From: a virus
Reading direction: 5' to 3' (one strand)
IMG/VR virus record: IMGVR_UViG_3300047556_000057
Coordinates: 1 to 21,677 of that record
DNA length: 21,677 bases
Part shown: positions 6,130 to 21,677 of the stretch, one piece after another
Layout of the letters: every line of letters begins with the position of its first letter
Position numbering within the stretch: the first letter of the stretch is position 1
Notes under the pieces: generated by a model
The model's database searches: none
What the model was told of the DNA's origin: nothing
The model's input: the letters and a program-made list of their open reading frames with translations, nothing else
Translations under genes and position numbers: made by a program

Positions 6130-6648
6130 ATGGCGGTCACAAGACAAAAACAACCTTTTTCTGTTAATAGTTATGGTGTAACACTAAATATCGGAAGTGC
6201 CATCAATTCGTCTTATTGGTCTAAGTGTAGTAAAATTGAAAAAACATATGAAACTTCTGATTATTCCGATGGTCAAACTAACATAATTTATAAATTACCA
6301 GGAGGTGTCAGATTTACCGATATCACATTGAGTAAACCTTTCACAGAAGATGATGCTGAACTTTTTACAGAATTACTTAAAGTCAATTCTGAAAGAAAAT
6401 TCATAGAAGCTTTTATACAACCGATGTATAGAGACGGTTATTATAGCCAAAACATAGGCGGCGTTGTTATAGCTCAATTCTGCGTAGTTGTTTCAGCATC
6501 ACTTATAAGTGAAATTGACACGGGCGGAAATTCTCCTACCATGTTGGAAACTGTTTTATCACCGGGTTATATTTCTTCCCAAGGTTCAACAATCTGGTGG
6601 AGAGAACCTGATTTACAGACAATTACCACGGGAACTAATGGTGCTTAG
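6130..6648 (+). CDS. Tail tube protein
   Basis: This 172-residue protein follows the sheath directly, as tube genes do in contractile-tail phages. Its size and pattern fit the T4 gp19/contractile-injection tube family: an N-terminal strand, a YETSDYSDGQTNIIYKLPGG segment (family form 'e....egG.n..v.klpg'), ITLSKPFTEDD, and a beta-rich C-terminal half. The tube is the conduit for DNA inside the sheath. AGAAGGA at 6115-6121 is a good ribosome binding site for this start. The last codons and the stop lie against the left end of the IscB element, so they probably specify the guide of its RNA. Confidence 0.85.
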   Translation: MAVTRQKQPFSVNSYGVTLNIGSAINSSYWSKCSKIEKTYETSDYSDGQTNIIYKLPGGVRFTDITLSKPFTEDDAELFTELLKVNSERKFIEAFIQPMYRDGYYSQNIGGVVIAQFCVVVSASLISEIDTGGNSPTMLETVLSPGYISSQGSTIWWREPDLQTITTGTNGA

Positions 6649-6649
6649 T

Positions 6650-6840
6650 CAGTAACTCAGCCCTAAAGGGACTGAGCTTGTAAGAGAAATCAAACAAGCT
6701 GTACTGACCAGTCTAAGTCTTAGCTGACTACGTTTTTTGAGTCATGACACCCTGTGGATGCGTAGCTAGTCCCCTGCTCTGTCATTTGCAATTAAACAGT
6801 TTTAAAGTCACTGAAACAGTGTTGCAAATCGAAAAAGCTC
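6650..6840 (+). ncRNA. Omega RNA of IscB
   Basis: IscB nucleases use an RNA encoded just upstream of their gene, with the guide at its 5' end. This 230-bp gap has several nested helices: AGCTTGT/ACAAGCT (6675-6681, 6694-6700), CAG(T)CTAA/TTAGCTG (6709-6726), ATGACA/TGTCAT (6744-6749, 6780-6785), and a three-way junction. The junction is closed by ATTTGCAA/TTGCAAAT (6784-6791, 6822-6829) and holds TTAAA/TTTAA (6792-6805) and CACTG/CAGTG (6809-6821). Such structure in an AT-rich gap is strong evidence for a folded RNA. The 5' limit and guide length are inferred from known IscB systems. Confidence 0.75.
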
Positions 6841-6885
6841 TTAAAACATTGACGAAGCTAACATTACCCAGAAATGGAGGGACTT

Positions 6886-8169
6886 ATGTCCAAAATATTT
6901 GTTTTAGATACAAACAAAAAACCATTAGACCCAATTCACCCAGCACAAGCTAGACAATTGTTACGAAACAAAAAAGCAGCAATCCTCAGAAGGTTTCCGT
7001 TCACAATCATTTTGAAAGAACCATCCCCTGATACACCACATCTCCTTTTGAGATTAAAGGTTGACCCTGGTGCAAAATATACAGGGGTTGCTTTGGTCAA
7101 CGATTCTACAGGAGAGGTTGTATTTGCTGCTGAGTTAAAGCATAGAGGTTTTGCAATTCGAGATGCTTTGACATCCAGGAGACAATTAAGAAGAAGTAGA
7201 CGTGCGAGAAAAACTCGTTACAGAAAACCACGATTTTTAAATAGAACACGTCCAGATGGATGGTTAGCACCTAGCCTACAAAGTCGCATTGAAAATATCA
7301 AAGCTTGGGTTGAAAAATTACGCAAACTTGCACCAATTGCAGCAATTAGCCAAGAGTTAGTTCGCTTTGATATGCAGCTAATGCGTAATTCAGATATTCA
7401 AGGTAAAGAGTATCAACAAGGTACTCTTGCTGGCTATGAAACTAGGGAATTTTTACTAGAAAAATGGGGTAGACAATGCGCTTATTGTGGTGTTAAAGAT
7501 GTTCCTTTACAGGTTGAACACATTCACCCGCGCTCTAAAGGGGGTAGTAATTCGATTACAAATCTGACTCTAAGTTGCGAAAAATGTAATACCAAAAAAG
7601 GGACTAAAGATATTAAAGACTACCTCAAAAAAGACCCATCTAAACTATCAAAAATCTTGGCACAAGCTAAAAGACCCTTAGCTGATGCAGCAGCAGTAAA
7701 CACAACCAGATTTGCATTACTGGAAGTTTTAAAGAAAACTGGACTACCTGTAGAAACGGGTTCAGGAGGTTTAACAAAGTATAATCGCAGTCAACAGAAA
7801 TTAGATAAAACTCATTGGCTTGATGCTGCTTGTGTTGGTACGTCAACGCCAATTCTCAAAATTAAAGGTATTAAGCCATTGTTAATTACAGCTAACGGTC
7901 ACGGTTCAAGACAGTCATGTAGGACTGATAGATTTGGTTTTGCTTCGCGGTATGTTCCAAGATTCAAATTTGTCAAAGGTTTTCAGACGGGCGACATCGT
8001 AAGAGCCGTTGTTACTAATGGTAAAAAAGTAGGCGAATATGTTGGAAGAATTGCAACTCGTTCGACAGGAAGTTTTAATATATCAACTAAGAATGGATTG
8101 GTTCAAGGAATTAGCTACAAAGCTTGTACGCACATACATAGAAAAGATGGATATAACTACTCAACTTAG
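6886..8169 (+). CDS. iscB: IscB RNA-guided nuclease
   Basis: This 427-residue protein has the full IscB domain order. An N-terminal PLMP-type segment reads PLDPIHPAQARQLL (residues 13-26). RuvC-I is LKVDPGAKYTGVAL with Asp60, followed by an Arg-rich bridge helix (about 98-118) and RuvC-II with Glu157 (ISQELVRFD). The inserted HNH domain has CAYC (198-201), EHIHPRSKGG (211-220) and CEKCN (231-235). RuvC-III has HWLDA with Asp313. A C-terminal target-interaction region has strands KTGD..VRAVVTNGKK. All expected catalytic residues are present, so the enzyme should be active. IscB, the ancestor of Cas9, cuts DNA matching its omega RNA guide next to a short motif. The start at 6886 is preferred over an ATG at 6874 because GGAGGG lies 4 bases before it. 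Confidence 0.93.
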   Translation: MSKIFVLDTNKKPLDPIHPAQARQLLRNKKAAILRRFPFTIILKEPSPDTPHLLLRLKVDPGAKYTGVALVNDSTGEVVFAAELKHRGFAIRDALTSRRQLRRSRRARKTRYRKPRFLNRTRPDGWLAPSLQSRIENIKAWVEKLRKLAPIAAISQELVRFDMQLMRNSDIQGKEYQQGTLAGYETREFLLEKWGRQCAYCGVKDVPLQVEHIHPRSKGGSNSITNLTLSCEKCNTKKGTKDIKDYLKKDPSKLSKILAQAKRPLADAAAVNTTRFALLEVLKKTGLPVETGSGGLTKYNRSQQKLDKTHWLDAACVGTSTPILKIKGIKPLLITANGHGSRQSCRTDRFGFASRYVPRFKFVKGFQTGDIVRAVVTNGKKVGEYVGRIATRSTGSFNISTKNGLVQGISYKACTHIHRKDGYNYST

Positions 8170-8252
8170 AAGATTCCATGCGACTAAAGTCGCCCGTGTC
8201 GCTTCCCTCTCAGGGCTAAAGCCACTGAGTTTCCCGCATACCGTGAGGTCTT

Positions 8253-8666
8253 ATGAAAATTAAAACACAACAAGATGTTTTTCCAATTGAACTAGAAGAT
8301 ACTAATATCACTGATCAAGAACCGGAAATAGTAGGACAAAGAGAAGTAGAAAACATCAAAGTCGATGAGGTATTGACCCCTAGTGGTAAGGAAGCAATTT
8401 CTTTTATATCACCTATTACTCAATATGAAATTATCATCCTTAAACCATCTACCAGGGACATGATAAACATCGAAAGAGATATGAAAAAATACCATAAAGA
8501 CGGAGGGAACTTTGAAAATGCAGTGGTAATGATTACACATCTACTTGTAGGTTACGGTGATAAACGAGGCGAAAAAATTTACAGTTTTAATAAAGTCATA
8601 GACACATTTAAACTGGAAGAGGTTATGCTGATAACTTCTATTTTAACTGAAGTTTTTTTCTCGTAG
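8253..8666 (+). CDS. Tail assembly chaperone, short form (gpG-like)
   Basis: This 137-residue acidic protein lies between the tube and tape measure genes, the fixed place of tail assembly chaperones. It starts after GAGG (8245-8248), which lies just beyond the right-end hairpin of the IscB element, so the insertion has spared or supplied its ribosome binding site. The body has a strand-helix region (ISFISPITQYEIIILKPSTRD) typical of the phage chaperones that coat the tape measure during assembly. It ends VFFS and stop, right after a slippery heptamer, so a share of ribosomes should extend it (see the G-T fusion). Confidence 0.8.
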   Translation: MKIKTQQDVFPIELEDTNITDQEPEIVGQREVENIKVDEVLTPSGKEAISFISPITQYEIIILKPSTRDMINIERDMKKYHKDGGNFENAVVMITHLLVGYGDKRGEKIYSFNKVIDTFKLEEVMLITSILTEVFFS

Positions 8667-8881
8667 GATACTGTGATGAACCAGACGTGATAATGGTTAA
8701 TGGCGATCCAGTAGAACTCAAAAGACTTGTGAAAAACATACTTTCTATATGTGGAGGTAATTACACTGAAACGTTTTATAGAATGATGTTAGAACCTCTT
8801 GAATCGATTAATTATTATATAGAAGTATTTAATGATTATCAAAAAGAGGTTTCAGAATCGATGAAAAAAAAATCTGAATGA
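8253..8881 (+). CDS. Tail assembly chaperone, long form by -1 frameshift (gpG-T-like)
   Basis: The heptamer T-TTT-TTC at 8654-8660 has the classic X-XXY-YYZ form in the frame of the short protein. A -1 slip there continues without a stop as LVGYCDEPDVIMVNGDP and runs to the stop at 8879-8881, giving a protein of about 209 residues. The extension has no good start of its own: a first methionine occurs at 8687-8692, but no Shine-Dalgarno sequence precedes it. In lambda and most long-tailed phages, G and G-T are made in a fixed ratio; the T part recruits the tube protein to the tape measure. A short stem AACCA/TGGTT (8679-8698) lies downstream, at a rather long distance from the slip site. Confidence 0.85.
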
Positions 8882-8913
8882 TGACTCCGGGGGGAGAAAT
8901 TCCCCGGAGTCAT
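8881..8913 (+). terminator. Stem-loop terminator after the chaperone genes
   Basis: ATGACTCCGGGG (8881-8892) pairs perfectly with CCCCGGAGTCAT (8902-8913) over a 9-base loop and is followed by TTTT. It overlaps the stop of the frameshifted chaperone and precedes the tape measure gene. It may lower tape measure transcription, since few copies are needed per virion. Confidence 0.8.
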
Positions 8914-8940
8914 TTTATAAAAATAATATGGTGAATTATT

Positions 8941-10959
8941 ATGGCTAATAGGAATATATCTATTAATCTCCAATTACTGACAGGCACTTTTAACAGTCAG
9001 ATGGATAATTTCATGAATGGTTTCAATAACCGTTTTAGAAATTTTAATCAGGATTTAACAAACTCTTTCTTTGGTTCTAACGGCGCATTTAGTATGTCGT
9101 TATGGGATCAAGCCTTTGATACTATCTATTATTTAGGTGTGAGAGCTTTTAGAGCTATTGGTGATGAAATAGGAAGAGCTATAGATTATCAAAACGACTT
9201 AATAAGTACAGCTTCTGCCTATCAAGGTTTATTGAATATATCTTTTGGTGAAGCTGAAAAACTAGCAAAACGATCTAACATAATTTTCCAATCTCAAAAC
9301 GCATCTTTACCTTTTCAACAATTAGGTTCACAGTTTCGAGCCGCTTATGGAGATGACATCTTAAGTGCATTATATGATAAAGATAATATTGATGGGTCGT
9401 TATCACGAACCGCCACCATGATAGGTAGATTACAAGTATTAATGGGCAGTATTAGCGGTGTAACAAATTATCAACGAGCATCATTTCTGAGCAATGCTTT
9501 AAGTAGTGACTATAAACATTTAAATAGGCTGGAAGTATTAAGAAACTCTCCTCAAATGTCACGCGCTTTCAATCAAGAAGTAGCTAACGTTGGTGGTGTT
9601 GACATATTCAATAAATTAGATAGGAATGAAAGAATAAAACTCTTGGAACGTGTAGCCAACGCTGCAATCAGTGAAGATGTTATAAGTGCTTATAGTAATA
9701 GTTTAGGCGGCATTTTTAGCCGGATCATGTTACAATTTTTCGGTGATATAGGAATATTTTCTTTTACAAGAGAAATATTTGGGGAAGCTGATAACAACGT
9801 CATATCATCTTTAACCGGATTGTTTAAAGAATTGTTCAATCCTAGAGGAATTTTTGGGTTATTTTTTCAGTTTTTAAAAGGTGTTGCGGACGGTTTTCTA
9901 ATCACTCTTAAAACAGCAATGGATGTTGCTGTAATCGTGCTGAAGCCATTAAATATGCTTGCTATGGTGTTATCACCTTTAGCACCACTTGTCTATGGCT
10001 TGAGTACAGCTTTGACTGTATTGGCGACTATAGGACTAGCAAAAGCAACAGCTTCAACAATTGCTAATATTGCTACTAATGGTGTAGGGGGAATTCTAGG
10101 CAGGGTAGGTTTAGGTTTTTTAGCACCGGGGGCAGGTGTTATTGGTAGTATGATAAATCCTGCTAACATCATGAAAGGGTTAGGGGGATTAATATCGTCT
10201 GGTTCTACTACAGTTGTTAATGGTTTCTTAGGTTTAGGAGCTGGCATAAAAGCCTTTAGCACTAGTTTAGTAGCATTAGCCGCCAATCCTGTGTTTTGGG
10301 TAGTAGCCGGGGTTGTAGGGGCGATTGCACTGGCAGGTTATACGATGTGGAAATACTGGAAGCCATTAGGAATGTTTTTTAATGGTTTCTGGGAAGGATT
10401 CCTGGAAGGATTAGAACCTGCCAGTTTAATGATGGACGGTTTCAATGAAGTCCTGGTGATGATAGGCAAATCGCTATCACCCATTGCTGACGGTTTTGAT
10501 TCAATTTTCAGTTCTATGAAACCTGTTCTAGATGCGATCGCCACATTCTTTAATTTGCAACAGGAGGAAGGAAGTAGAGAGAATTTTGATGCAGGTAAGG
10601 CTATAGGTAAAGGTGCAGGTAATATAGTCAAATTTGGTGTAGGAGGATTACTAACAAATCCACTAATAAATCCCTTTCACGCGTTTTTTAAATTCCCCTC
10701 TTTCGCTTCTGGAAATGATCCTTATGGTTTCATGGATGCTGTTAACCGGGAATCTAGAGCCATGCCGACAGGCTCTAAACTAGCACTAGCCAATAATAGT
10801 GAAATGATTATCCCCCGGAGTCAACAAGGGATAATGGGTAATAATTATAGTTTTAATCCCACAGTGATAGTAAACGGAAACAGCAATGCAAATATAGCAA
10901 ACGATGTCACAAACGCGTTAAATATTTGGTGGCAACAAGCTAAACTCGAAAACATCTAA
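8941..10959 (+). CDS. Tail tape measure protein
   Basis: This 672-residue protein is the longest in the tail block apart from the hub and directly follows the chaperone pair, as tape measures do. The first 300 residues are helical with many amphipathic repeats (DNFMNGFNNRFRNFNQDL). Two long hydrophobic stretches follow (about 325-375 and 430-475), as in tape measures that enter the host membrane. The C-terminal part has a low-complexity linker and a short conserved-looking end (NNSEMIIPRSQQG...NPTVIVNGN). The usual 1.5 angstrom per residue suggests a tail of roughly 100 nm. A HIP1 site (10534-10541) and one in-frame motif copy (10814-10822, read as Pro-Arg-Ser) lie inside. Confidence 0.9.
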   Translation: MANRNISINLQLLTGTFNSQMDNFMNGFNNRFRNFNQDLTNSFFGSNGAFSMSLWDQAFDTIYYLGVRAFRAIGDEIGRAIDYQNDLISTASAYQGLLNISFGEAEKLAKRSNIIFQSQNASLPFQQLGSQFRAAYGDDILSALYDKDNIDGSLSRTATMIGRLQVLMGSISGVTNYQRASFLSNALSSDYKHLNRLEVLRNSPQMSRAFNQEVANVGGVDIFNKLDRNERIKLLERVANAAISEDVISAYSNSLGGIFSRIMLQFFGDIGIFSFTREIFGEADNNVISSLTGLFKELFNPRGIFGLFFQFLKGVADGFLITLKTAMDVAVIVLKPLNMLAMVLSPLAPLVYGLSTALTVLATIGLAKATASTIANIATNGVGGILGRVGLGFLAPGAGVIGSMINPANIMKGLGGLISSGSTTVVNGFLGLGAGIKAFSTSLVALAANPVFWVVAGVVGAIALAGYTMWKYWKPLGMFFNGFWEGFLEGLEPASLMMDGFNEVLVMIGKSLSPIADGFDSIFSSMKPVLDAIATFFNLQQEEGSRENFDAGKAIGKGAGNIVKFGVGGLLTNPLINPFHAFFKFPSFASGNDPYGFMDAVNRESRAMPTGSKLALANNSEMIIPRSQQGIMGNNYSFNPTVIVNGNSNANIANDVTNALNIWWQQAKLENI

Positions 10960-10979
10960 GGATGACTCCGGGGGCATTA

Positions 10980-11090
10980 CCAGATTTCGTATCTGGGAAA
11001 CCAAAACTAAAAAGCGGAGAGGGACGGCTTTAGCCTCCCTCGTAGCAACAGTTTAGAATCCCCTCGGCTTTAGCCAGGGGAGAGGTCAAA
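10980..11090 (+). mobile_element. Relic right end of an IS605/TnpB-type element (omega RNA-like)
   Basis: Two strong hairpins with TTTA loops and a bulged C lie in this gap: GAGGGA(C)GGC-TTTA-GCCTCCCTC (11019-11041) and TCCCCT(C)GGC-TTTA-GCCAGGGGA (11059-11081). Between them is GTAGCAACAGTTTAGAA. A smaller hairpin CCAGAT/ATCTGG is at 10980-10996. From memory this resembles the right end of cyanobacterial tnpB elements, which doubles as the 3' scaffold of the TnpB omega RNA and ends near GGTCAAA. No tnpB gene or left end remains here, so it is a solo end or a miniature element. Confidence 0.6.
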
Positions 11091-11105
11091 ATAAAGTCAC
11101 TTTAC
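11091..11105. repeat. Palindromic repeat, copy 4 (ATAAAGTCACTTTAC)
   Basis: The same palindrome with A for the outer G, as in copy 1. It directly abuts the relic element end and lies 50 bp before the next start codon. A decayed motif copy (TCCCGAAGTCA, 11111-11121) follows it. Confidence 0.7.
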
Positions 11106-11155
11106 CGTGTTCCCGAAGTCATGTTAAAATTATTACATGAGTATTAAATTTTACT

Positions 11156-12019
11156 ATGTTTTATAGAAATAAAGCTGTTATAGATGGATTACCATCAATA
11201 AAAAGAACGGGATACCAATTTGCACAATTGGTAGAAGAAATTGACATAAATAATAGAACTAAAAGGACACCGGAGCAAAACAAAAACTTTTTATATGAAG
11301 GAGTTCCCGTTTACTCATTTTTAATGAATCCTGAATCTATTCAATGGTCATTACCAATTGAATATAGGGAGACTCAAATACCATACACAAACATGAATCA
11401 AGTGAATTTTGTTAGTGGCGGAAACATCGCTATGACAATCCCCGAAATGATTCTAGATTCACATGAAGAGAGTAAAAGTATAGAATTACTTCTAAATCGT
11501 TTAATAGAGTTAAGAGTACCTACAACTAAAAACGGGCTAGTATCTTATCCTAAACGTTTATATTTTAGATGGGGTTCGTATAGGTTCGGTGTGTGCGTGC
11601 TGACAAGCATACAAACAACTGTAACCAAAGTCATAGACGGAAAACCAAGTAAAGCCAGGGTGTCTATAACGCTTAAAGAAGTTCCCGCGATCACACCTAG
11701 TAGTGCAATAAACGAAGCCAAGAAAACTATATCTACCGCCACGGGTAAAATTCCCGGAGTCATTATCAATACTCCTACACCAACACTAAAGAAAGCTTTA
11801 AGCGGTAAGCAAATAGAAGACGGTAAAACAGCAGTTAATAAATATTTAGCTGTTAAAAAAACGTTGCTAGCTAAAAAAACTAGAGATGTTTTAAATGATC
11901 CTAAAGCGTCAATACAAATCAATAAAGATACTGGATCAGTTGATTTAATTAACTCTACTAATGGTAGTGTTATCAATTTAGGTATTTATAACGGTAATAT
12001 TTTTGTACCAGCTATTTAA
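11156..12019 (+). CDS. Tube-initiator-like baseplate protein (CIS_tube family)
   Basis: This 287-residue protein matches the contractile-injection tube-initiator type of protein. It has YSFLMNPESIQWSLP (family form 'f.FNPesl.w'), then a segment ending NFVSGGNIAMTIPEMILDSHEE (family form 'l.f.Gg....l...l.lD'), a helix SIELLLNRLIELRVP, and strands LYFRWGSYRFGVCVLTSIQTTV and ARVSITLKEV. These proteins link the tube to the hub at the baseplate. The following gene is LysM-like, the usual partner. The C-terminal third (about 185-287) is Lys-rich and not recognised. No Shine-Dalgarno sequence is seen, and an ATG at 11138 opens only a short out-of-frame stretch. Confidence 0.7.
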   Translation: MFYRNKAVIDGLPSIKRTGYQFAQLVEEIDINNRTKRTPEQNKNFLYEGVPVYSFLMNPESIQWSLPIEYRETQIPYTNMNQVNFVSGGNIAMTIPEMILDSHEESKSIELLLNRLIELRVPTTKNGLVSYPKRLYFRWGSYRFGVCVLTSIQTTVTKVIDGKPSKARVSITLKEVPAITPSSAINEAKKTISTATGKIPGVIINTPTPTLKKALSGKQIEDGKTAVNKYLAVKKTLLAKKTRDVLNDPKASIQINKDTGSVDLINSTNGSVINLGIYNGNIFVPAI

Positions 12020-12022
12020 ATT

Positions 12023-12559
12023 ATGACAACGCAAGAATTTATGTCGGGTGAAACTTTTGAAGGTACAGAGTATTGGGGTGAGATTTTACCAGGGGAAGAT
12101 TTTAACAAGAATGATCCTAGAATAAAACCTAATACGACAGATTCCATTTTAACTAGAGGTAATCAAAAAATAATAGAACAATTGCAGAAAGGTGATTATT
12201 ATAATGTCGAATATCAACAAGGTAAAACTCTCAATAAATTAGCAACAGAATATTTAGGTGATAGTTTTGCATGGCAGATAGTTGCAGAAGTTAATGAGAT
12301 AGATCCTCAAAAACCTATAGACATCAATAAACTTTCTAAAAGTGGTTTAAAAATACCTGATCAAAAAATATTACAAGAAAAAGCTGTTAAGTACATAGTT
12401 AACTCGCCTCAAGGTAAACAAATAATAAAAGATGTTAAAGGATCAATTTTAGATTTTGCTGGAATAGGAGAAAACTCACAAGATGAATTTTCTAAAGGTA
12501 TTAGAGAATGTGTTAATAAGATCATAAATTTCAAATTTGATGACACTAAAACGAAATAA
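12023..12559 (+). CDS. LysM-like baseplate protein
   Basis: This 178-residue protein carries a LysM-like segment at about residues 58-113: YYNVEYQQGKTLNKLATEYLGDSFAWQIVAEVNEID, ending in GLKIPD. Tail LysM-like proteins (P2 gpX, T4 gp53) sit at the baseplate centre and hold the hub and tube together. It starts 3 bases after the previous stop and ends 12 bases before the hub start, so the three genes probably form one translational unit. The C-terminal 60 residues are helical, with a single Cys, and are not recognised. Confidence 0.7.
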   Translation: MTTQEFMSGETFEGTEYWGEILPGEDFNKNDPRIKPNTTDSILTRGNQKIIEQLQKGDYYNVEYQQGKTLNKLATEYLGDSFAWQIVAEVNEIDPQKPIDINKLSKSGLKIPDQKILQEKAVKYIVNSPQGKQIIKDVKGSILDFAGIGENSQDEFSKGIRECVNKIINFKFDDTKTK

Positions 12560-12571
12560 AACAGTTTTAAT

Positions 12572-15250
12572 ATGACTCAAGATCCATATATAAGTATCAA
12601 TATTGGCAATGATACTTTCACCACAGGTAAAGAATTGGTTGGTGCTAATGTAACGATAGGTGAAGGTAAAAAGCAAAACTATTGTGTTTTCAGTATTTAT
12701 GATCCGAACGGATACTATGCGGATAAGTATATATCAGCTAGCTACGTGACAAACGGAATAGAATTACCAAATGAATTTTACGAAACAACAACAGAAAATA
12801 GTAATAATGTTGTCACAGATATTGACGCAGGAGGGGGAACAGTATCTAAAGGGGGGATTTTTACACCAGAAATAAGAGCATTTTTAGATACCGTTGCTTG
12901 GAAAGAAGTTGCCCCTGGAACTGAAACGTCACTACAAGGTTATTACTCAATATCCCTAGAAAATGGTAAATTTCTATCTGTTGCCGAAACTGAAGCAGGA
13001 TATCCTCCTTATGGCAGGAGGTATATAGGAAGATATCAATCAAATGATATAGGATACAACGAAGCTAAACAAAAATATTCTCAAATAAATAATTTTACAC
13101 CAGCTAACCAAGACTTAATCGGTTATTACAAATTAGAAGTTAAAAGAGGTGTTTTACCGTATATTAAGACTGGTGATATTAAAGAAGCTTTACACATATC
13201 AGCTAAAGAATGGGCTGCAATCCCTCGCAAAGACAACCCGCTCGGTTATTACGGACAAGCAAAACATGGACTGTCTCTAGACGCTTTTGTCGATTATTAC
13301 AACACACGTTTAAACTTTTACAAATCACAAGAAAGTGCGGTAGAATTATCCCCTCAAACCCCAAAGGCTGACTCCGGGGGGATAGTCACGCCGAACCAGA
13401 CATTGGTGAAAAGTGTGCTAAGTAATAGCGCACAGGTTAGTTTTTATGGTTTTAACGATGGTTTCGGCGGAAAAAAAACAGCAAACGGAGAAATATTTGA
13501 TCCTAATGATTTCACTGCCGCTCATAAGACTTTACCATTCGGGACTTTAGTAAAAGCGACATGGTTAACCAATAATAAATCAGTCATTGTCAGGATTAAT
13601 GATCGCGGGCCATATTCAGGTAGTAGGCAGTTAGATTTATCTTATGGTGCGGCAAGATCACTTTCAGATGAAACAAATAACGCCATAGACGCTGGCATAC
13701 TGAATTGTAAATTGGAAATCATGAGCGAGGGTAGAACCGGATCGGTTTCAAAAGAGACCGCCAAAGAATCGACAGCCGAATCAATCGCGATCGCTAAAAA
13801 CTCCACACCTCTTATTAAAGTACCCGAAGTTTCCGCAAAAGGTACTCAAATCACTGTAGAAATGACCGTGGATCGCACCGGAGTAGTGGTATTCAGTTTT
13901 TTACATACCGGTACACGTCACGATCAAATTTCAAGAACTACCGAATTTACTGGTCAATCAATTGCATGGGTTCTTAACCGTCGCATAAAAAATACCCGTT
14001 ACACCGGAGTCACCCTAAAAGGTTTAGCTAACATTATTGCTCGCCGTTACAATTTAGAATTGTCCATGGACGGTGAAGGTGAATATATAGATTCACTTTC
14101 ACAAGTAGGTCTAACAGACTGGCAAATGTTAGAAAGAATAGCTACGAAGCAAGGATATGGGTTGCGAACAGTAGGTAAATTATTGCAGATATACAAAAAA
14201 ACTGTTCTGGGTTCACAGGGTGGTTATACGATCGCAATTGGGGAAAATATCAGATCACTACAAGTAGTTGATATAGCCCAAACAGACGCGCAAGGAAGTT
14301 CTAATAAAATTGAGCATCATGGGGGGAGAATTTCTACACTGATTGATGCTGACTCCGGTGCGTTAATCAAAAATGGTCAAGACAATAAACGAGACGCTGG
14401 TAATGACACGAAAACTTATACTGTTGGCGTTGATGTAGTTTCAACTTCCCAGTCAGGTAGAATCTACGAGAACCCACGACCGGACAATCTTTCGGTCAAG
14501 GAATATCAAATAGAAGTTTCCCTATACACCACTCAGAGTGATCTGGAGAATTTGACACCTGACACACCGCTATTTATTGCTGAATCACTACCTTTCATTA
14601 GTAATAAATCTTGGTTTATTGAATCCGTAAATCATGCTTGGAATGAAGGTATAATATCAAGCGGATTAAAATGTTATGTTCCGGTAGCACCTAAAGCTGT
14701 AAATTTAGGTGGTGAAAACAACAGTAATTTATCCCAAACTGATTTTGAAACACTTAATCAGTTTGGAGTGGGTAATGTGGGTGTTTATAAAATAGTCGAT
14801 TCTAACGGGAACGCTGTAACGTCTTTCGATACCCTCAAAGAACATTGGCGTGGTACGGGAAACTACACCGACTATAGACCAGCACCAAGCAACACTAAAA
14901 CGGGTCGTGTCAGTTTCATGAAGGGTAGACCATCACAACTTGTCTACGATATTATCTTATCCAAAAATGGTAATCAAAACGTTCCCGTCCCATCCCCAAT
15001 TAGCGGTAAAATAACTGCTGTCGGTGGTGCTAACGGTATGGTTAAAATACAAAATGGTGAGACTGAAGTCAAATTGTTGCACCTAAGCAATATAAAAGTA
15101 AAAGTTGATGACACGGTTTATCGGGGAGCTTCTGTTGGCACTCAAGCAAGCGTTGGCCCAACTAGCACCGGAGTACATTTACATATAGAAGCCCCGGAAT
15201 TAGTTATACGCCAATACATAGAATCTTTACTATCAGGTCAATTTAATTAA
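12572..15250 (+). CDS. Tail hub (gpD-like) fused to lysozyme-like, RlpA-like and M23-like domains
   Basis: This 892-residue protein appears to be a hub interrupted by cell-wall domains. Residues 1-65 look like the start of a gpD-type hub. Residues 95-255 resemble lambda-endolysin-type (GH104-like) lysozymes: IRAFLDTVAWKE, RRYIGRYQ, then NFTPANQDLIGYYKL. Residues 285-385 are an RlpA-like double-psi barrel: VSFYGFNDGFGGKKTANGE, FTAAHKTLPFGTLVK, SVIVRINDRGPY, RQLDLS. The hub resumes at about 425-705 (TGVTLKGLANIIARRYNLEL, DWQMLERIATKQGYGLR). Residues 780-892 are an M23/LytM-like domain with PSPISGKITAV and GVHLHIEAP. The hub trimer caps the tube; the added domains would open the peptidoglycan during infection. 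The M23-like domain keeps the final His-x-His, but the usual first metal His is not visible before VYDI. Confidence 0.8.
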   Translation: MTQDPYISINIGNDTFTTGKELVGANVTIGEGKKQNYCVFSIYDPNGYYADKYISASYVTNGIELPNEFYETTTENSNNVVTDIDAGGGTVSKGGIFTPEIRAFLDTVAWKEVAPGTETSLQGYYSISLENGKFLSVAETEAGYPPYGRRYIGRYQSNDIGYNEAKQKYSQINNFTPANQDLIGYYKLEVKRGVLPYIKTGDIKEALHISAKEWAAIPRKDNPLGYYGQAKHGLSLDAFVDYYNTRLNFYKSQESAVELSPQTPKADSGGIVTPNQTLVKSVLSNSAQVSFYGFNDGFGGKKTANGEIFDPNDFTAAHKTLPFGTLVKATWLTNNKSVIVRINDRGPYSGSRQLDLSYGAARSLSDETNNAIDAGILNCKLEIMSEGRTGSVSKETAKESTAESIAIAKNSTPLIKVPEVSAKGTQITVEMTVDRTGVVVFSFLHTGTRHDQISRTTEFTGQSIAWVLNRRIKNTRYTGVTLKGLANIIARRYNLELSMDGEGEYIDSLSQVGLTDWQMLERIATKQGYGLRTVGKLLQIYKKTVLGSQGGYTIAIGENIRSLQVVDIAQTDAQGSSNKIEHHGGRISTLIDADSGALIKNGQDNKRDAGNDTKTYTVGVDVVSTSQSGRIYENPRPDNLSVKEYQIEVSLYTTQSDLENLTPDTPLFIAESLPFISNKSWFIESVNHAWNEGIISSGLKCYVPVAPKAVNLGGENNSNLSQTDFETLNQFGVGNVGVYKIVDSNGNAVTSFDTLKEHWRGTGNYTDYRPAPSNTKTGRVSFMKGRPSQLVYDIILSKNGNQNVPVPSPISGKITAVGGANGMVKIQNGETEVKLLHLSNIKVKVDDTVYRGASVGTQASVGPTSTGVHLHIEAPELVIRQYIESLLSGQFN

Positions 15251-15323: not shown

Positions 15324-18300
15324 CTATGGTTTCCTTTCTGGCATCATACATTTATCCGAGTCGCAAGCCGCGCTCCCTTGCGCGAAAGCTTCCATTTCAT
15401 GTAAATCATGTTGACTTAGTAATTCTAAAAAGTCTTGTCCTTTTCTCCTAGATATCGCCTCAGAAACCATTTTGTCATAAACCTCTTTCGATATAGGCTC
15501 AAATGGTAGCCGAGGGAAAGTTTCCAGGGAATCGAATCTAGCTAAAACAGCAGCAGAAACATAACCTTCATCGTTATGTATAGATTTGTAAAGAAGCTTT
15601 GCTAAAGTCTCAATTTCATGCTCTCTTATTTCTAATGTAGCAGATGCGTTATGAGTGACGTAGAATTTCTGTACTTGCATATAGAAACTGTACTGAGCTT
15701 CGATTGAAAACTTGGATATGTCGATTTGATCACACCCTTCCAAGTTAGCCCAAGGCATTTCTACCGGGATTTCGACTAACCATTCGGTGCATCTAGGGTC
15801 AAACGGATCTTCTAAAAGTTGACCGTTTTCGTCTTTATCCGATTGACTGGGTACAATATTATACCCGTAATCCTTAAGTGCTAACGCGATCGCATCATCT
15901 TTACCGAAAGTTATTCTACGAATATATCTAGCTGCTTTTGGAGGATGCCATCCGGGGCTAGCACCTGTTAATAAAGATTTGCTGTTATGTGATTTTAAAC
16001 AACCTTGCCAATACCAAGAATCATTATCATCTGAACCGTCTACAGCAAAATCATAACTATAATCAAGTGTTGTCTCAAAATCTACGCTAACGATTTTATA
16101 AGGGTCAAACTTAAATCTACGTTTAAGTTTCGGTAAAGGTCTTACCGAACATTTAAAACTGTTAAGATTTAAATATTCAATTGCGTAAGATGTCGATACC
16201 ATTCTACTTAAACATAAACCGTGCATATCTTTTTCAGCCTGCATATTTTCCCCTTTGGTATTATGGAAAATTGAAAAAGATAAACCTACAGCTTCCCCTA
16301 TTTGTTGTAAATTTCTGAGAAACTTTTCACTTGCCGAATCTATAGACAAACTACCAGCCTTTTTTACACAACCGTCAGTGTCTATTAATCCACAGAAGAA
16401 AGACAATATACTATCTCTAGATGATGTTCTAATCGCGTAGGGTATACGATCTAATTCTTTACTTTTTGATTTTTTAGACAAGTTATTCATTATCAACCAA
16501 TCGAATAACTGTTTAGAACCAAAAGTCAATTCTTTTTTTTGTCCGCGAGAATCATCCGAAATAATACCTCTGATACCGAAAAGTTTTAATCCCAAATCAC
16601 TTAATCTGTTTAGAATTTCTTCGTGTCCGTGAGAAAATCTAACTCTTGTGCTAGAAGGTGATAGACAACCATTACCAAACAAACAACCTAGAAAATATGC
16701 TAAATCAGGTGAGATTGTAGAAGGTGTTTTGATAGTCTGAGTTAGAACACCACGAGAATGCCCTTTTTCTAAAGCTCTAAACTCTCTAGTATAATCACCA
16801 TAATTCAAAGGAATTAAAGACGTTTCGGAATCTTTATTGTATTCACCCAAAGAATAATCAATTTTCATTCCTGGTTGCATATCGGATGCGTAAACCCATT
16901 GACCATTTATTGATAGTCTATGGTTTTGTGTCATCCTCAAAATTCTACCATTAGATAAAGTAACTTTAACTAAGTTGAGAGGTTGATTAGCAATAACCTT
17001 ATTGGTGCTAATACCATTTCTTACAGATAAGTCGATACCATCATGTTCTCCCGAACCAGGGTTCACAATTTCATCTGCGTAAATTAGACCCTGATCAAAA
17101 ACTCTTAAGGCTGTTTTATCCAGACATCCGGCTGGTTGCAACGTTGTGCAACGGTTTGGAACTTTCAAGCCCTGTTTATGGCAATAATCTTGTACGGTGT
17201 CAACTACAATATCTTTCCAAAAAGATAAACATTCAATCTCTTCAATTGCAAAATAATTAGCTTTCGGGTGATTGTCGGATCTTCCCTGTTCCCACCATTG
17301 CAACCATTCCGCGCCAAACTTTTTAACAAAGAAGTCGAACACCCCCGTAAATGATACGCCAACAATAGGATCTACCTTTCTGGCGTATTGATACCTTTCA
17401 ATGGGGAACTCGTGGTGTAGGAGCGCACAGACCGCGATCGCCGCAGATTTGAAAGCTTTTACTTGTTCTTCTATATCACCTGGGTCTATCTGGTTTAAGT
17501 GTACTTCACCGAGATTGCACAAATTATTGCGCATTACTATCTCGCCGCAAGGATTCAAGCCATACCTACCCATACGATCATCAAGTAGTTTCTCATCTGC
17601 CCCGGAGTCACTCGAAAGTAACGCCAAATAATCCCGGGCTGACTCCGGGGAAGAAACATATAATTCTATAAAACGCCTACGTCTAGCGTCACTGATAAGC
17701 AAATCGGCGTTTGCTCTCGCGATCGCTTCCGGTGCAAATTGGATTGCCCCTTCACCACTGTAATATTGCTTCGTACAAGCGTCTAATAACTCTTTGTAGG
17801 TAGGTTTGGTGTGGTAGACTCTGGTGTGGTTCGCCATCCGTAAAGCGTCGCGCTCAGGATCTATTGACCATTTACCAGATTCATCTTGCATCCAGAGATT
17901 GTCTTTGGAGTTAGCAGCTTCATGATCTTCTTTTGAAAACTGATGTATAGACGCGCTATTATGTGTTAAATAACCATCACAATAAAAACAGTGAGTTTCT
18001 TCTACCTCGATATCATAAGTTTGTATGTGGTCATAACTCCCCAATGCTTTAACAGTCACAGGAATATCTAATGTTATATCAGACTCGGCTATGTAACTTT
18101 CATAATTGGCATCATGGGAAATAGATGTGTTGAAACCCATTTCTCTTATTTCACTATAAGAGTGCTGTTTCAATAACATATTTTTGGGTATCGTAAAATC
18201 AAAATTTTTGTTGCCTATTTTCAACTCTCCTTTTACTGAATGTATAGAGATAATGTTGTTATAGGAATCTTTTAAAGCTGGTAGTGTCAGATTATATTTT

Positions 18301-19967
18301 GCTTGCCAATTTGATTTTTGGGGTTGAGTTATACTCAACCTACCAGCTATACCCAAACTAGATAAAACCGCCCCTACTTCCCTAATGAAAGTCGGATATA
18401 CGGATGTAACTAAATGTGGCGGTCTATTGTTTAATGCTTTATCACTATCCATCAATCCCGCTAAATAAGAAGCTCGAATTTCAACAGATCCTTGAAGTAT
18501 AAAATCTGGTACTGATAAGGTGACTTTCGGTTTTTTGATGTTGTGATAGAAATACTCAGCCAATCTTATAGAAGAGCAAACTGATCTAGCCGTATTTTCA
18601 CCTTTAACTATACCGTGTTTAGCAGTAAGACCAAACATATTTAAAACGGAATCTATCTTGTTTTGTATTTTTTGTGCTAATTCCGGTTGGGAACTATTCA
18701 TAGACCATTCAACACGACCATATGGTTTATCGTATTTATTACGACCAATAGCTATATAACCGTTACCATGTGTGTAGCCTATTAACCATGATATTTCGGG
18801 TGTTAGTTCTGGAACAACAAAGGTTTTAGCTGTACGACTTTGAATAGGTCTGGTTTCAGTAAAGTCAGGTGGTAAATAAGTAACTGTACCAGGTAAAATC
18901 TGTTTATTATGTAATAGTCTGTCTCCTGGTAAGATATCCTGAATTTTTTTCCAAATATAGCCACCTTTAGCGTCAGATAATACAGCTAGTCTGTGATTTA
19001 AAGTTGCTCTAGGATAAGTAGAATTAGTTTCAATTTCGTAGACATCTTGAAATCCCTGATCAAATTTATTTGTGACTTTCCTGAAACCTAAAGGTGTTTG
19101 TACTAAATCACCTACTTGTACATCACGGATGGGAACTAAACCTTTTGATGTATGAACTAAAGCATTTTCTGGAAGACAACGACGAATGTTTCCAGCAACT
19201 ACTGCTGAAGCGGCTTCGTCTGCCAACAAACAACACTCGACAGATGTCAAACGACGACCAAGAGCTTTATCTAGAATCTTACCAACTCTCACAAACATTT
19301 CACCAAGTTTGATGGGATTAGCCACGCCACCAAAACCTTTTAATCTCTCACCTTTGGGTCTAACTCCCCGTACATCGACATTTACACCGGAAAGTTTTAC
19401 TAAATCGGTAGCGGCTAAATGAATTAAAGTAGTATAAGCTGTTACCCACCCATCACGACTATCACCTACAACTATAGTTGCTGTGGTGTCACCGAAATGT
19501 AACTCGGTTTTATCTCTGCGTTCCCATTCCGGTAAATCTCCAGGTTTGCCAATAATGGTAGTATTTAATCGATTCTTGATAACTGGTAACTTTTCAATAT
19601 GAAAATTTTCCATAATTGATCCTGTTCCACATCCTTGCATTGCAAGATTCATTAAGTAACCAAACGCTTCTACGGTATCAATATCAGTAGAAGAGCAATT
19701 ATAAGTACCAAAAAAATTCTCAGGATTTTTAGCCCAATCTGTTCCCCCTACCCATAACCAGCGACCACTAGGCATAGTTATAAGTTTCGTTTGCATTTCT
19801 TTTAATAACTCAGCTTCTACTAAGGAAAGTTTCCCTAGTTCAACTAAAGCGTTAACTGTGCGCTCCGTGGTTGCTTTCCAATCTTCTCTACGACCGTTTG
19901 GTAATCTACGACTATATGAACGATAAAATACGGCGGGTGCGGTTGGTGCATCGAAATTAAATGACAT
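15324..19967 (-). CDS. nrdJ: Class II (adenosylcobalamin-dependent) ribonucleotide reductase with two inteins
   Basis: The 1547-residue precursor splits into exteins of 263, 277 and 219 residues, which join to 759 residues, close to the monomeric Lactobacillus leichmannii enzyme (739). It reduces ribonucleotides to deoxyribonucleotides for DNA synthesis, using a B12 radical. Active-site features are present: an N-terminal Cys91 (FGTYNCSS), the radical-site motif NPCGEI (Cys807, Glu809) followed by LCNLGE (Cys817), the substrate loop TTLQPAG/SKSLLTGASPG, and a C-terminal CxxxxC pair (Cys1535, Cys1540) for reduction by thioredoxin. The gene lies on the opposite strand to the virion genes, with its own promoter and long leader. 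Such genes are common in cyanobacteria and their phages. Intein boundaries are given separately. AAAGGA lies upstream of the start, at a rather long distance. Confidence 0.93.
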   Translation of the reverse strand: MSFNFDAPTAPAVFYRSYSRRLPNGRREDWKATTERTVNALVELGKLSLVEAELLKEMQTKLITMPSGRWLWVGGTDWAKNPENFFGTYNCSSTDIDTVEAFGYLMNLAMQGCGTGSIMENFHIEKLPVIKNRLNTTIIGKPGDLPEWERRDKTELHFGDTTATIVVGDSRDGWVTAYTTLIHLAATDLVKLSGVNVDVRGVRPKGERLKGFGGVANPIKLGEMFVRVGKILDKALGRRLTSVECCLLADEAASAVVAGNIRRCLPENALVHTSKGLVPIRDVQVGDLVQTPLGFRKVTNKFDQGFQDVYEIETNSTYPRATLNHRLAVLSDAKGGYIWKKIQDILPGDRLLHNKQILPGTVTYLPPDFTETRPIQSRTAKTFVVPELTPEISWLIGYTHGNGYIAIGRNKYDKPYGRVEWSMNSSQPELAQKIQNKIDSVLNMFGLTAKHGIVKGENTARSVCSSIRLAEYFYHNIKKPKVTLSVPDFILQGSVEIRASYLAGLMDSDKALNNRPPHLVTSVYPTFIREVGAVLSSLGIAGRLSITQPQKSNWQAKYNLTLPALKDSYNNIISIHSVKGELKIGNKNFDFTIPKNMLLKQHSYSEIREMGFNTSISHDANYESYIAESDITLDIPVTVKALGSYDHIQTYDIEVEETHCFYCDGYLTHNSASIHQFSKEDHEAANSKDNLWMQDESGKWSIDPERDALRMANHTRVYHTKPTYKELLDACTKQYYSGEGAIQFAPEAIARANADLLISDARRRRFIELYVSSPESARDYLALLSSDSGADEKLLDDRMGRYGLNPCGEIVMRNNLCNLGEVHLNQIDPGDIEEQVKAFKSAAIAVCALLHHEFPIERYQYARKVDPIVGVSFTGVFDFFVKKFGAEWLQWWEQGRSDNHPKANYFAIEEIECLSFWKDIVVDTVQDYCHKQGLKVPNRCTTLQPAGCLDKTALRVFDQGLIYADEIVNPGSGEHDGIDLSVRNGISTNKVIANQPLNLVKVTLSNGRILRMTQNHRLSINGQWVYASDMQPGMKIDYSLGEYNKDSETSLIPLNYGDYTREFRALEKGHSRGVLTQTIKTPSTISPDLAYFLGCLFGNGCLSPSSTRVRFSHGHEEILNRLSDLGLKLFGIRGIISDDSRGQKKELTFGSKQLFDWLIMNNLSKKSKSKELDRIPYAIRTSSRDSILSFFCGLIDTDGCVKKAGSLSIDSASEKFLRNLQQIGEAVGLSFSIFHNTKGENMQAEKDMHGLCLSRMVSTSYAIEYLNLNSFKCSVRPLPKLKRRFKFDPYKIVSVDFETTLDYSYDFAVDGSDDNDSWYWQGCLKSHNSKSLLTGASPGWHPPKAARYIRRITFGKDDAIALALKDYGYNIVPSQSDKDENGQLLEDPFDPRCTEWLVEIPVEMPWANLEGCDQIDISKFSIEAQYSFYMQVQKFYVTHNASATLEIREHEIETLAKLLYKSIHNDEGYVSAAVLARFDSLETFPRLPFEPISKEVYDKMVSEAISRRKGQDFLELLSQHDLHEMEAFAQGSAACDSDKCMMPERKP
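15984..17126 (-). other. Intein 2 in nrdJ (381 residues)
   Basis: It covers precursor residues 948-1328. It starts with Cys948 (CLDKTALRVF), has a block B MTQNHRLS with Thr and His, and ends in CLKSHN before Ser1329. It is inserted between PAG and SKSLLTG, in the substrate-binding loop, so the enzyme cannot work before splicing. A LAGLIDADG homing endonuclease domain lies inside: YFLGCLFGNGCL and FFCGLIDTDGCV. The first motif has GNG where GDG is usual. Confidence 0.9.
17958..19178 (-). other. Intein 1 in nrdJ (407 residues)
   Basis: It covers precursor residues 264-670. It starts with Cys264 (CLPENALVHTSKGLVPI), has a block B TLNHRLAV, and ends in CDGYLTHN before Ser671. The insertion point splits NIRR from SASIHQF, a conserved part of the barrel. 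Its LAGLIDADG endonuclease motifs read SWLIGYTHGNGYI and YLAGLMDSDKAL. As in intein 2, the first motif has Asn for the usual Asp. Confidence 0.9.
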
Positions 19968-20085
19968 AAAATCTGTTTATCCTTTGTTATTTGATATATC
20001 ATTTTATTGATGATCAGGAAATCACCATTGAATCATTATTAATTATGTGTTAAATTATTAATGTTGGTGTTTTTGTTCTTTTCAT

Positions 20086-20143
20086 CAACCCCAAATGATA
20101 ATAAACGCGAGTCTGGTTAAGCAGGTTTGCGTTTTTTGGGTTG
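20086..20143 (-). promoter_or_regulatory. Structured 5' leader of the nrdJ transcript
   Basis: Read on the minus strand, CAACCC and GGGTTG (20138-20143 with 20086-20091) can form an outer helix around AAACGC/GCGTTT (20129-20134 with 20103-20108). It begins right at the predicted transcript start, and the whole leader is about 180 bases. No cobalamin-riboswitch B12 box was seen. On the plus strand the inner hairpin is followed by a T run and might instead act as a terminator. Confidence 0.45.
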
Positions 20144-20150
20144 TGTATAT

Positions 20151-20179
20151 ATTATATATTAATCACTTTTGATATGCAA
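20151..20179 (-). promoter_or_regulatory. Sigma-70-type promoter of nrdJ
   Basis: On the minus strand, TTGCAT (20174-20179) and TATAAT (20151-20156) are 17 bp apart, close to consensus. The site lies between the terminator of the upstream minus-strand operon and the structured leader of nrdJ. Confidence 0.65.
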
Positions 20180-20180
20180 C

Positions 20181-20215
20181 AAAAAACCCGAAGTCATGTA
20201 AAATTGACTCCGGGG
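20181..20215 (-). terminator. Terminator after the small Cys-protein operon
   Basis: On the minus strand, CCCGGAGTCA (20205-20214) pairs with TGACTTCGGG (20187-20196), with one G-U pair, over an 8-base loop, followed by six T (20181-20186). The stem lies 18 bp past the end of the upstream gene. The G-U pair shows that this stem is kept as RNA of the minus strand. Confidence 0.85.
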
Positions 20216-20232
20216 AGATAAACTTTTTCCTA

Positions 20233-20493
20233 CTATTGTGAATTCCTATCTAGTACGTTTGTGCGTTTTCGATAAGTGACTAAAAAGCAACTTTTAGATT
20301 CACTATAAAAACGATAAATAGGTTGTCCCCAAGGTGATTTTAGGTTGCGCCTAACATACTCTTGTCTAGCTATTATCTGGCATTCTCTGTAATTTCTTGT
20401 AACAGCTAGGAAGCTTTCTTCTCGATAAACACCTAATGGTAATGCTGGAGCGGGTTCAATGGCGATTAGAGATGCTACTAATAGTTCAATCAT
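20233..20493 (-). CDS. Small Cys-containing protein, second gene of a pair
   Basis: This 86-residue protein starts at 20493 (MIELLVASLIAIEPAPALPLG), chosen because GGAG lies 6 bases before it; the frame also runs further upstream. Its N-terminus is hydrophobic and may be a weak signal peptide. It resembles the gene before it: both have a Cys followed by AR, a G-x-P or R-x-P turn, an aromatic strand and a C-terminal SC-xx-VT-x-R. They look like diverged tandem copies, with one disulfide expected in an oxidising compartment. It starts 2 bases after the upstream stop, so the two are coupled. No function is recognised. Confidence 0.65.
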   Translation of the reverse strand: MIELLVASLIAIEPAPALPLGVYREESFLAVTRNYRECQIIARQEYVRRNLKSPWGQPIYRFYSESKSCFLVTYRKRTNVLDRNSQ

Positions 20494-20495
20494 TG

Positions 20496-20816
20496 TTATC
20501 TCCAAGTGACCGCGTAACAACTACGACTATTTTTTCTACCGCCAATATAGAAATGGGTTTTACCATTTCTATATGGTGTTCTGTTTCCTAGTTGAAGAAA
20601 AAGCCATCTAGCCGCTTTTGAAGAACAGTTTTGGAGGTTTTTATCCACCAGATAGAAACTCGAACCTTTCCAGTAATTGCGCTGTTCCTGTGTAGGTGCG
20701 TTTATTTCCGGGTTTGTAAACAAATCTAAATCTTTATTAAGTGCGATCGCTGATGATCCTGTAATCACCATACTTGCACTTAAAAGTGACGCAGATATTA
20801 CTTTTAATGCTTTCAT
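20496..20816 (-). CDS. Small secreted Cys-containing protein, first gene of a pair
   Basis: This 106-residue protein starts MKALKVISASLLSASMVITGSSAIA, a clear Sec signal peptide: positive start, hydrophobic core and an AIA cleavage site near residue 25. The mature part has two Cys (LQNCSSKAARW and NSRSCYAVTWR) and an aromatic strand THFYIGG, and probably forms a disulfide outside the cytoplasm. An in-frame TTG 12 bases upstream could also start it. It is expressed from a promoter with a consensus -10 at 20843-20848. Function is unknown; cyanobacterial genomes have many small secreted proteins of this kind, so this may be a host or moron gene. Confidence 0.7.
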   Translation of the reverse strand: MKALKVISASLLSASMVITGSSAIALNKDLDLFTNPEINAPTQEQRNYWKGSSFYLVDKNLQNCSSKAARWLFLQLGNRTPYRNGKTHFYIGGRKNSRSCYAVTWR

Positions 20817-20820
20817 GTTT

Positions 20821-20855
20821 TTAACCAAATCTGGTTAAAATGATTATAACCAAAT
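20821..20855 (-). promoter_or_regulatory. -10 box and operator-like dyad before the small secreted pair
   Basis: TATAAT (minus strand, 20843-20848) is a consensus -10 box. The dyad TTAACC-N6-GGTTAA (20821-20838) covers the likely transcript start, and AACCAAAT is repeated directly at 20823-20830 and 20848-20855. This is the layout of a repressor site. The -35 region is weak. Confidence 0.45.
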
Positions 20856-20900
20856 AAGATTTAAATAAACATCAGTAAAAACAGTAACAGATGTCAAGAT

Positions 20901-20934
20901 AAAAAAAACCGAAGTCAATCTGGAATGACTCCGG
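20901..20934 (-). terminator. Terminator after the coiled-coil gene
   Basis: On the minus strand, CCGGAGTCA (20926-20934) pairs with TGACTTCGG (20909-20917), with one G-U pair, over an 8-base loop, followed by eight T (20901-20908). It has the same form as the terminator at 20181-20215. Confidence 0.85.
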
Positions 20935-20970
20935 GGGGAAAATAGAAAGGTGGGAAGGATAACTTTTAAG

Positions 20971-21303
20971 TTATTCAGCAGGTGCGTCAGGAATGATTCC
21001 CATGACTTTTACACTGATTCTATCCAGTGCTTCGATGATTGCGGGCAGTTCAGCCGCGTCAGGAACACTTGCTAGTAATTCGCTTAGGCGTTCCACTTCA
21101 GCTTGTAGCGCGGTAGATAATTCGGTCAATGCAGAAACTTGTACTAGTACAGCTTCACCTTGAACCATTTCAGCGTCTACTTTGGTTTCAAGTTCGACAA
21201 CCTTATCGAATAATTCGGACATGGTTTTATTTAACTCCTGTAGTCGGTCTAGAATCGCCTCCAAGGTCTTTGGAGAGTCGATGTGTATATTGAATACAAA
21301 CAT
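20971..21303 (-). CDS. Coiled-coil protein of unknown function
   Basis: This 110-residue protein begins MFVFNIHIDSPKTLEAILDRLQELNK. From about residue 12 to 85 it keeps a heptad pattern of Leu, Val and Met (LEAILDRLQELNKTMSELFDKVVELETKVDAEM), so it should form a long coiled coil, with a Pro/Ala-rich end. No Cys and no signal peptide are present. An in-frame ATG at 21327 is possible but has no ribosome binding site; AAGAG lies upstream of the chosen start. A hairpin GATGCTC-TTAC-GAGCATC (21311-21328) covers the upstream region and could control translation. Phages often carry such small coiled-coil proteins near lysis or DNA-handling genes, but nothing here fixes the role. Confidence 0.6.
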   Translation of the reverse strand: MFVFNIHIDSPKTLEAILDRLQELNKTMSELFDKVVELETKVDAEMVQGEAVLVQVSALTELSTALQAEVERLSELLASVPDAAELPAIIEALDRISVKVMGIIPDAPAE

Positions 21304-21416
21304 TAGGAAAGATGCTCTTACGAGCATCTGTAACTAACAGAGGAAAACTTATTAGGCTATCCTTTGTAATCTTACCATGCCGGGGAAACGATCACGTGTA
21401 AAATACCCATTTCTAG

Positions 21417-21431
21417 ACTAAACGGTTTAGT
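21417..21431. promoter_or_regulatory. Palindromic operator-like site
   Basis: ACTAAAC-G-GTTTAGT is a perfect 15-bp dyad in a non-coding stretch, upstream of the coiled-coil gene and beside the GATAACAAAA cluster. A dimeric regulator site is plausible. Confidence 0.4.
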
Positions 21432-21459
21432 TTTAATGACACTTTTCTGACTCCGGGGC

Positions 21460-21610
21460 GATAACAAAACCCTAAGATCCTCAAACGTAGTCTAGGCATG
21501 GTTTTCACGCTCTGATAACAAAATTTTGTTATCGATAACATTTTTGTTATCAGTTTGTTATCGGCTAGAAGTCGCTCCCAGACTGACTCCGGGGGATTTG
21601 ATAACAAAAA
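21460..21610. promoter_or_regulatory. Cluster of GATAACAAAA operator/iteron-like sites
   Basis: The decamer or its core occurs seven times in 150 bp. It forms a perfect 20-bp palindrome GATAACAAAATTTTGTTATC (21514-21533), a second dyad GATAACA-TTTT-TGTTATC (21534-21551), a single inverted copy TTTGTTATC (21554-21562), and single direct copies at 21460-21469 and 21600-21609. The region from 21304 to the window end (about 370 bp) has no supported gene. It holds this cluster, the dyad at 21417-21431 and two copies of the TGACTCCGGGG motif. It could be a regulator switch or a replication origin. Confidence 0.65.
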
Positions 21611-21677
21611 TAACTCTTTTGATCGCACTTTTTCACTATATAGGGATAATTTTATATATATTAAATGTGTATAAGCG

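Follow-up and report, generated by a model that had tools for sequence, protein, structure and literature searches.

The right-hand end of a viral genome fragment in IMG/VR carries a dense group of GATAACA sites in a region without genes, and the question that this locus raises is what these sites are for. The fragment (record IMGVR_UViG_3300047556_000057, whose 21,677 nucleotides are the window analysed here) begins partway through the gene for the major head protein and breaks off within the array element. Its structural genes match those of the Nostoc/Anabaena myophages A-1, N1, YongM, YongM2, Elbi and Dfl-JY23, with a hub protein 51-52% identical to those of these phages. Based on these matches, we assign the window to an uncultured relative of the Nostoc/Anabaena myophages A-1 and N-1. 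Among plasmids, the hub protein had matches that were only partial and mostly of the RlpA type.

A preliminary description, made from the letters of the DNA alone, had reported seven copies of one site, including a perfect 20-bp palindrome and an adjoining dyad, next to a second dyad, ACTAAAC-G-GTTTAGT. The palindrome and both dyads are present, and the density of sites is real, with seven GATAACA in 21417-21609, far above shuffled sequence. The count of seven holds for GATAACA but not for the full 10-mer GATAACAAAA, which has five exact copies (21460+, 21514+, 21524-, 21542- and 21600+); a sixth site has one mismatch (21553-), and the seventh is the bare core GATAACA at 21534+. The exact 10-mer is absent from the rest of the 21.7-kb record. 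Within 200 bp GATAACA occurs seven times; when the window was shuffled 200 times with dinucleotides preserved, no more than three fell within such a span. The terminal 778 bp contain seven copies, compared with at most two in 1000 shuffles of those 778 bp. No other 7-mer is as clustered anywhere in the window. A check for random recurrence found GATAACA arrays again only as modules near operon starts.

The array does sit at a border of transcription units, as had been described. The gene-free stretch reaches from the start of an 83-aa gene (21222; a longer possible start lies at 21327) to the end of the record, and its only open frame, of 87 codons, is without supporting evidence. The sites form mostly inverted pairs on alternating strands, not a ladder of direct iterons. 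The features of this end of the window are as follows.

20971-21222, minus strand: 83-aa gene reading away from the arm, a weak relative of A-1 gene A1L_29 (phrog_30686)
21413-21677: the portion of the repeated element that the record contains, namely one arm and part of an AT-rich core (blastn against contigs G001 and G002, and alignment)
21417-21431: dyad ACTAAAC-G-GTTTAGT, ACTAAACGGTTTAGT, the outer edge of the arm
21448-21458, plus strand: TGACTCCGGGG, a motif iterated genome-wide, beside the first GATAACA site
21460-21469, plus strand: GATAACAAAA site
21514-21533: perfect 20-bp palindrome GATAACAAAATTTTGTTATC, comprising two sites
21527-21540: 14-bp palindrome TGTTATCGATAACA, overlapping GATAACAAAATTTTGTTATC and kept in the G001 and G002 arms
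21542-21551, minus strand: GATAACAAAA site
21553-21562, minus strand: GATAACAAAC site, one mismatch
21584-21594, plus strand: second copy of TGACTCCGGGG
21600-21609, plus strand: GATAACAAAA site
21610-21677: beginning of the AT-rich core; ~100 bp up to the record end are identical to G001
21666-21674, minus strand: TTATACACA within the core, which fits the DnaA-box consensus TTWTNCACA, a weak motif with several occurrences elsewhere

No Rfam family or tRNA matched the array region, and the 83-aa neighbour protein had no relatives in IMG/VR in a tblastn-confirmed search. Likewise, the terminal 778 bp had no blastn match among phage records, as phages do not share the sequence of the repeat.

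The palindrome GATAACAAAATTTTGTTATC is found in the two IMG/VR contigs G001 (15,805 bp) and G002 (29,755 bp). Its matches in Clostridia, Bacteroidales and Saprospiraceae contigs, and most of the 71 matches to an 18-bp pattern, come without arrays and were taken as chance. Positions 16734-29755 of G002 equal positions 1-13022 of the window (100.000% over 13,022 bp), and the two records therefore form one 38.4-kb stretch. The left end of G002 repeats the window arm in inverted orientation (86% identity over 160 bp), with thymidylate kinase next to it. Inverted arms therefore bound this stretch: relative to the structural/terminase segment, the window arm lies towards hub and RNR, and the G002 arm towards thymidylate kinase. 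The window arm also matches G001 834-560 (blastn, 90.5% over 275 columns), and the G001 and G002 arms are 96% identical over 155. When the three arms are aligned, homology ends at or just past the ACTAAAC dyad, which occurs exactly once in each of them and was not found in A-1, N1, YongM, Elbi or Dfl-JY23.

G001 holds a fuller element, with an array at 403-452, a core at ~490-630, a second array at 631-777 and the dyad at 816-830, after which come a gene without assigned function and the genes for a helicase and a B-family polymerase (polB). The AT-rich core thus lies between inverted site arrays (G001 403-777), of which the window shows one half. In G001 the core reaches 89% AT over 80 bp, a value attained by 0.008% of the tested 80-bp windows. 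A small array of four GATAACA lies near the other end of this contig (15707-15746). G001 and the window are separate records that share no sequence outside the element; from gene content and shared motifs we infer that G001 probably comes from the same genome. Three arms of the same type, together with the shorter half in G001, suggest at least three copies of the element across these unjoined contigs, compared with two in the isolates described below. When arm sequence, spike and primase served as queries for additional contigs, none emerged beyond those described, and the helicase search gave, besides G001 itself, only matches of at most 25% identity over part of the protein.

The ends of G001 (1-14 and 15792-15805) are identical (ATTTTAAGCATATT) and lie beside TTTAAGCG-rich DNA. 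Repetitive DNA may share such ends by chance, or the molecule may be circular; 14 bp is too short for us to accept G001 as circular. The overlap would also fit an assembly artefact, in which the array at the contig end is a hairpin or a chimeric join, as would a record that stops within an inverted-repeat element, a frequent break point of short-read assemblies. We find this explanation scarcely credible, since the arm stands in three public records with different flanks and the PCR-closed isolates (Elbi, A-1 and N-1) have matching elements at the same loci.

These isolate elements were identified by comparing five genomes (A-1, N1, YongM, Elbi and Dfl-JY23), and then YongM2, with themselves. 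In all six, the longest inverted repeat (426-724 bp) occupies the locus equivalent to the array element and shares its architecture:

A-1: 20506-21222 and 53848-53133, 98.7% identical
N1: 19656-20378 and 49999-49276, 98.3%
YongM: 35951-36467 and 65429-64913, 100%
Elbi: 21808-22424 and 52973-52357, 99.7%
Dfl-JY23: 29890-30315 and 68914-68491, 96.2%
YongM2: 36238-36710 and 66888-66416, 99.8%

The isolate repeats are AT-rich, modestly so in N1 and YongM2, and contain clustered GTTACA/TGTAAC (A-1 group) or ACAAGAC (N1). They lie near primase, spike and thymidylate kinase genes, with primase adjoining one copy in every isolate (in A-1 behind a transposase gene). We therefore hold with high confidence that the GATAACA array is an arm of such an inverted-repeat element. 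In the 2016 A-1 record (KU234533.1), one repeat contains a 431-bp partial tandem duplication (34498-35352), which is missing from the 2023 record.

In an alignment, repeat copies are 96.7-100% identical within one genome, whereas between genomes they are 39-79% identical. A-1 and YongM2, which are ~85% alike overall, have repeats only 79% alike, with each phage's own pair at 99-100%. Since the copies are near-identical within and divergent between genomes, the two copies in each genome appear to correct each other, that is, to undergo concerted evolution.

Repeats of this kind have been reported before. Patel et al. (2021) described a 29,932-bp inversion in Elbi flanked by 504-bp inverted repeats, and noted that A-1 and N-1 have repeats at corresponding genome positions without substantial mutual similarity (PMC8297451). 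The element of the window phage resembles these in its inverted copies and their relative positions; opposite orientations of the segment are seen among the isolates, whereas the contigs of the window phage stop within the element. It differs in its motif, GATAACA, in a further and fuller copy at the helicase/polymerase operon, and in the agreement of its visible arms (86-96%, from partial views only, compared with 96-100% between isolate copies). Patel et al. reported the repeats and one inversion; what is new is the description of the arrays and of concerted evolution, and the extension to the lineage of the window. In the open-licence papers that we searched, we found no mention of site arrays within the repeats, no interpretation of the within-genome identity as concerted evolution, and no function for the repeats.

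The segment between the repeats measures 28-38 kb and carries primase, helicase, polymerase, tail fibres and spike. Taking A-1 as reference, YongM, YongM2, Elbi and Dfl-JY23 carry it in the opposite orientation, the strand switching at the repeats, whereas N1 shows the A-1 arrangement. Both A-1 records agree in segment order. Repeats longer than the read length are unresolvable by short reads alone, and a recorded orientation may be arbitrary. At least the segment orders of A-1, N-1 and Elbi are credible, since PCR was used to close A-1 and N-1 from three contigs (PMC4916379), and PCR with Sanger reads to close Elbi (PMC8297451). The array of the window is accordingly an arm of what, by comparison with the isolates, appears to be an inverted repeat bounding an invertible segment, which lay beyond the view of the preliminary description. 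The element would also explain why assemblies of such phages, the window included, break at these points.

Inverted repeats likewise bound the flipping C and G segments of P1 and Mu, which are ~3-4 kb long and in which a dedicated invertase swaps tail-fibre ends; the cyanophage segment is 28-38 kb long and has no recognised invertase. If the element served chiefly for recombination, to flip the segment as happens in such invertible phage segments, the flips between relatives exactly at the repeats and the homogenised copies within genomes would be accounted for. However, any long repeats would flip likewise by homologous recombination, and the repeats are non-coding, so flipping swaps no gene ends. 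Furthermore, the window and the contigs have no recognised invertase or integrase, and A-1/N-1 lack an integrase according to Chenard et al. (PMC4916379). A dedicated inversion site is less likely for want of a recognised invertase, and we consider this explanation improbable.

We propose instead that the inverted-repeat element is a duplicated origin combined with a divergent control region, an explanation to which we assign a probability of roughly 0.5. Each element is probably a non-coding module of ~0.4-0.5 kb, consisting of an array of inverted GATAACA sites, an AT-rich core and a second array, with inverted copies at the junctions between the structural/terminase segment and the replication/tail-fibre segment. 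A phage protein would bind the array, the AT-rich core would melt, and replication would begin at each copy, with divergent promoters tied to the same site. The copies would be kept alike by homologous recombination, which would sometimes also flip the segment.

Taking the inverted-repeat anatomy as given, we judge origin function an even proposition. It is favoured because the arrays face the core, AT content is extreme in most genomes, primase is adjacent in the isolates and a skew minimum lies near one copy there. The detrended GC-skew minimum falls inside or within ~2 kb of one copy in all six isolates, which is weak evidence, since skew follows gene orientation. The DnaA-box-like TTATACACA in the core points the same way. 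An origin with iterons, one of the readings offered in the preliminary description, came nearer than its alternative of a lysogeny switch: as in the iteron origins of plasmids and phages, clustered short sites lie by AT-rich DNA with a DnaA-box-like motif. Here, unlike in those origins, the sites are mostly inverted pairs around the core and no initiator gene adjoins, no Rep-like gene being recognised beside any arm. None of the three contigs yielded a homologue of the A-1 primase, FtsK, exonuclease or LuxR-type regulator.

Control of transcription is nearly as plausible a role as origin function, and both may coexist. Genes beside all three arms (window, G001 and G002) run away from the element, and the ACTAAAC dyad, once per arm at the outer edge, lies 30-60 bp from plausible -10 sequences identified by eye. 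The array motifs, moreover, differ between phages in the manner of operator specificities of heteroimmune phages. These observations would suit an element that is a duplicated control region only, where a regulator binds the arrays and the dyad to time the diverging operons and replication starts elsewhere. Against this, predicted promoters are no more numerous in the element than in shuffled sequence, and an operator alone leaves the AT-rich core between two arrays unexplained. In addition, the LuxR-type gene that neighbours the element in relatives reads towards the element, and none was found on the window, G001 or G002. We regard control without origin function as possible but doubtful.

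The first description had also raised a lysogeny switch. A lysogeny (immunity) operator cluster would account for dense palindromic sites at a gene-free border, and a prophage-like relative in Nostoc PCC 7524 (PMC4916379) and a transcriptional-regulator/antirepressor-like gene at G001 14100-14828 are in keeping with it. Nevertheless, we consider it very unlikely: searches of the flanks on the window, G001 and G002 found no repressor, integrase or adjacent regulator, the isolates are described as lytic, and every isolate has the same architecture at two places. The operator-or-origin reading therefore stands in kind, as a candidate cis-acting protein-binding array, and falls as a lysogeny switch.

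For a duplicated origin with divergent control, the closest likeness is oriS of herpes simplex virus, which lies in the inverted repeats flanking the short segment. There, too, inverted sites surround an AT-rich core, inverted repeats bound an invertible segment and divergent promoters stand beside them. The virus is unrelated, however, and the cyanophage element has many more sites per array, is a candidate origin only and has no known origin-binding protein. Tentatively, and with rather low confidence, these lytic cyanophages might share a herpesvirus-like layout, with a duplicated origin in recombining inverted repeats, a genome existing as flipping isomers, and initiator-site sequences that change fast between phages and stay the same within a genome. 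If the repeats are origins, they would offer a small system in culture for testing the mutual dependence of inverted repeats, origins and genome isomerisation, which has been studied mostly in herpesviruses. Fast motif change combined with strict within-genome identity would make each phage its own specificity class, and co-variation of the array motif could identify the binding protein.

Multi-copy motifs in A-1/N-1 were noted by Chenard et al. (2016), who suggested stoperators (PMC4916379). Like mycobacteriophage stoperators, the GATAACA/GATAACAAA sites are a multi-copy, phage-specific DNA motif; unlike them, they are concentrated in array modules at few loci rather than dispersed. The dispersed analogue in the window phage is the dyad AAAGTSACTTTA (window 992, 2059, 4418 and 11093, with further sites in G001/G002). 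It corresponds to AGAGTSACTCT of the A-1 group, a sequence that agrees with the A-1 motif for which Chenard et al. proposed a promoter or stoperator role (PMC4916379). Another motif, CCCCGGAGTCA, is extremely over-represented, with 59 copies in ~54 kb of the window phage against 0.005 expected (window positions include 718, 1978, 8882, 20926, 21448 and 21584; it also occurs in G001 and G002). A-1, YongM, Elbi, Dfl-JY23 and YongM2 have 73-84 copies each, and N1 instead has 78 copies of CCCCGGAATCA. Neighbouring CCCCGGAGTCA copies are more often opposite than alike in orientation; terminator-like hairpins arise from some pairs, and more than half of the A-1 copies lie inside genes.

Several further features were observed elsewhere in this phage. 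At window 6648-8169, a HEARO (omega) RNA (153 bits) is followed directly by an IscB-like RRXRR/HNH gene, the pair sitting between the tail tube and tail chaperone genes. A 300-aa protein with a ParB-like DGQHR motif, identified by eye (window 1037-1939; phrog_5931), is inserted after the major head gene and is absent from A-1 and N1. The class II ribonucleotide reductase gene at window 15324-19967, absent at that place in A-1 and N1, is apparently split by two inteins, with intein splicing and homing-endonuclease stretches. Two long frames of G002 (3307-5211 and 5516-7702; 634 and 728 aa) match the A-1 neck-fibre and dCTP deaminase genes over only ~130 residues each, and may therefore contain further inteins or insertions.
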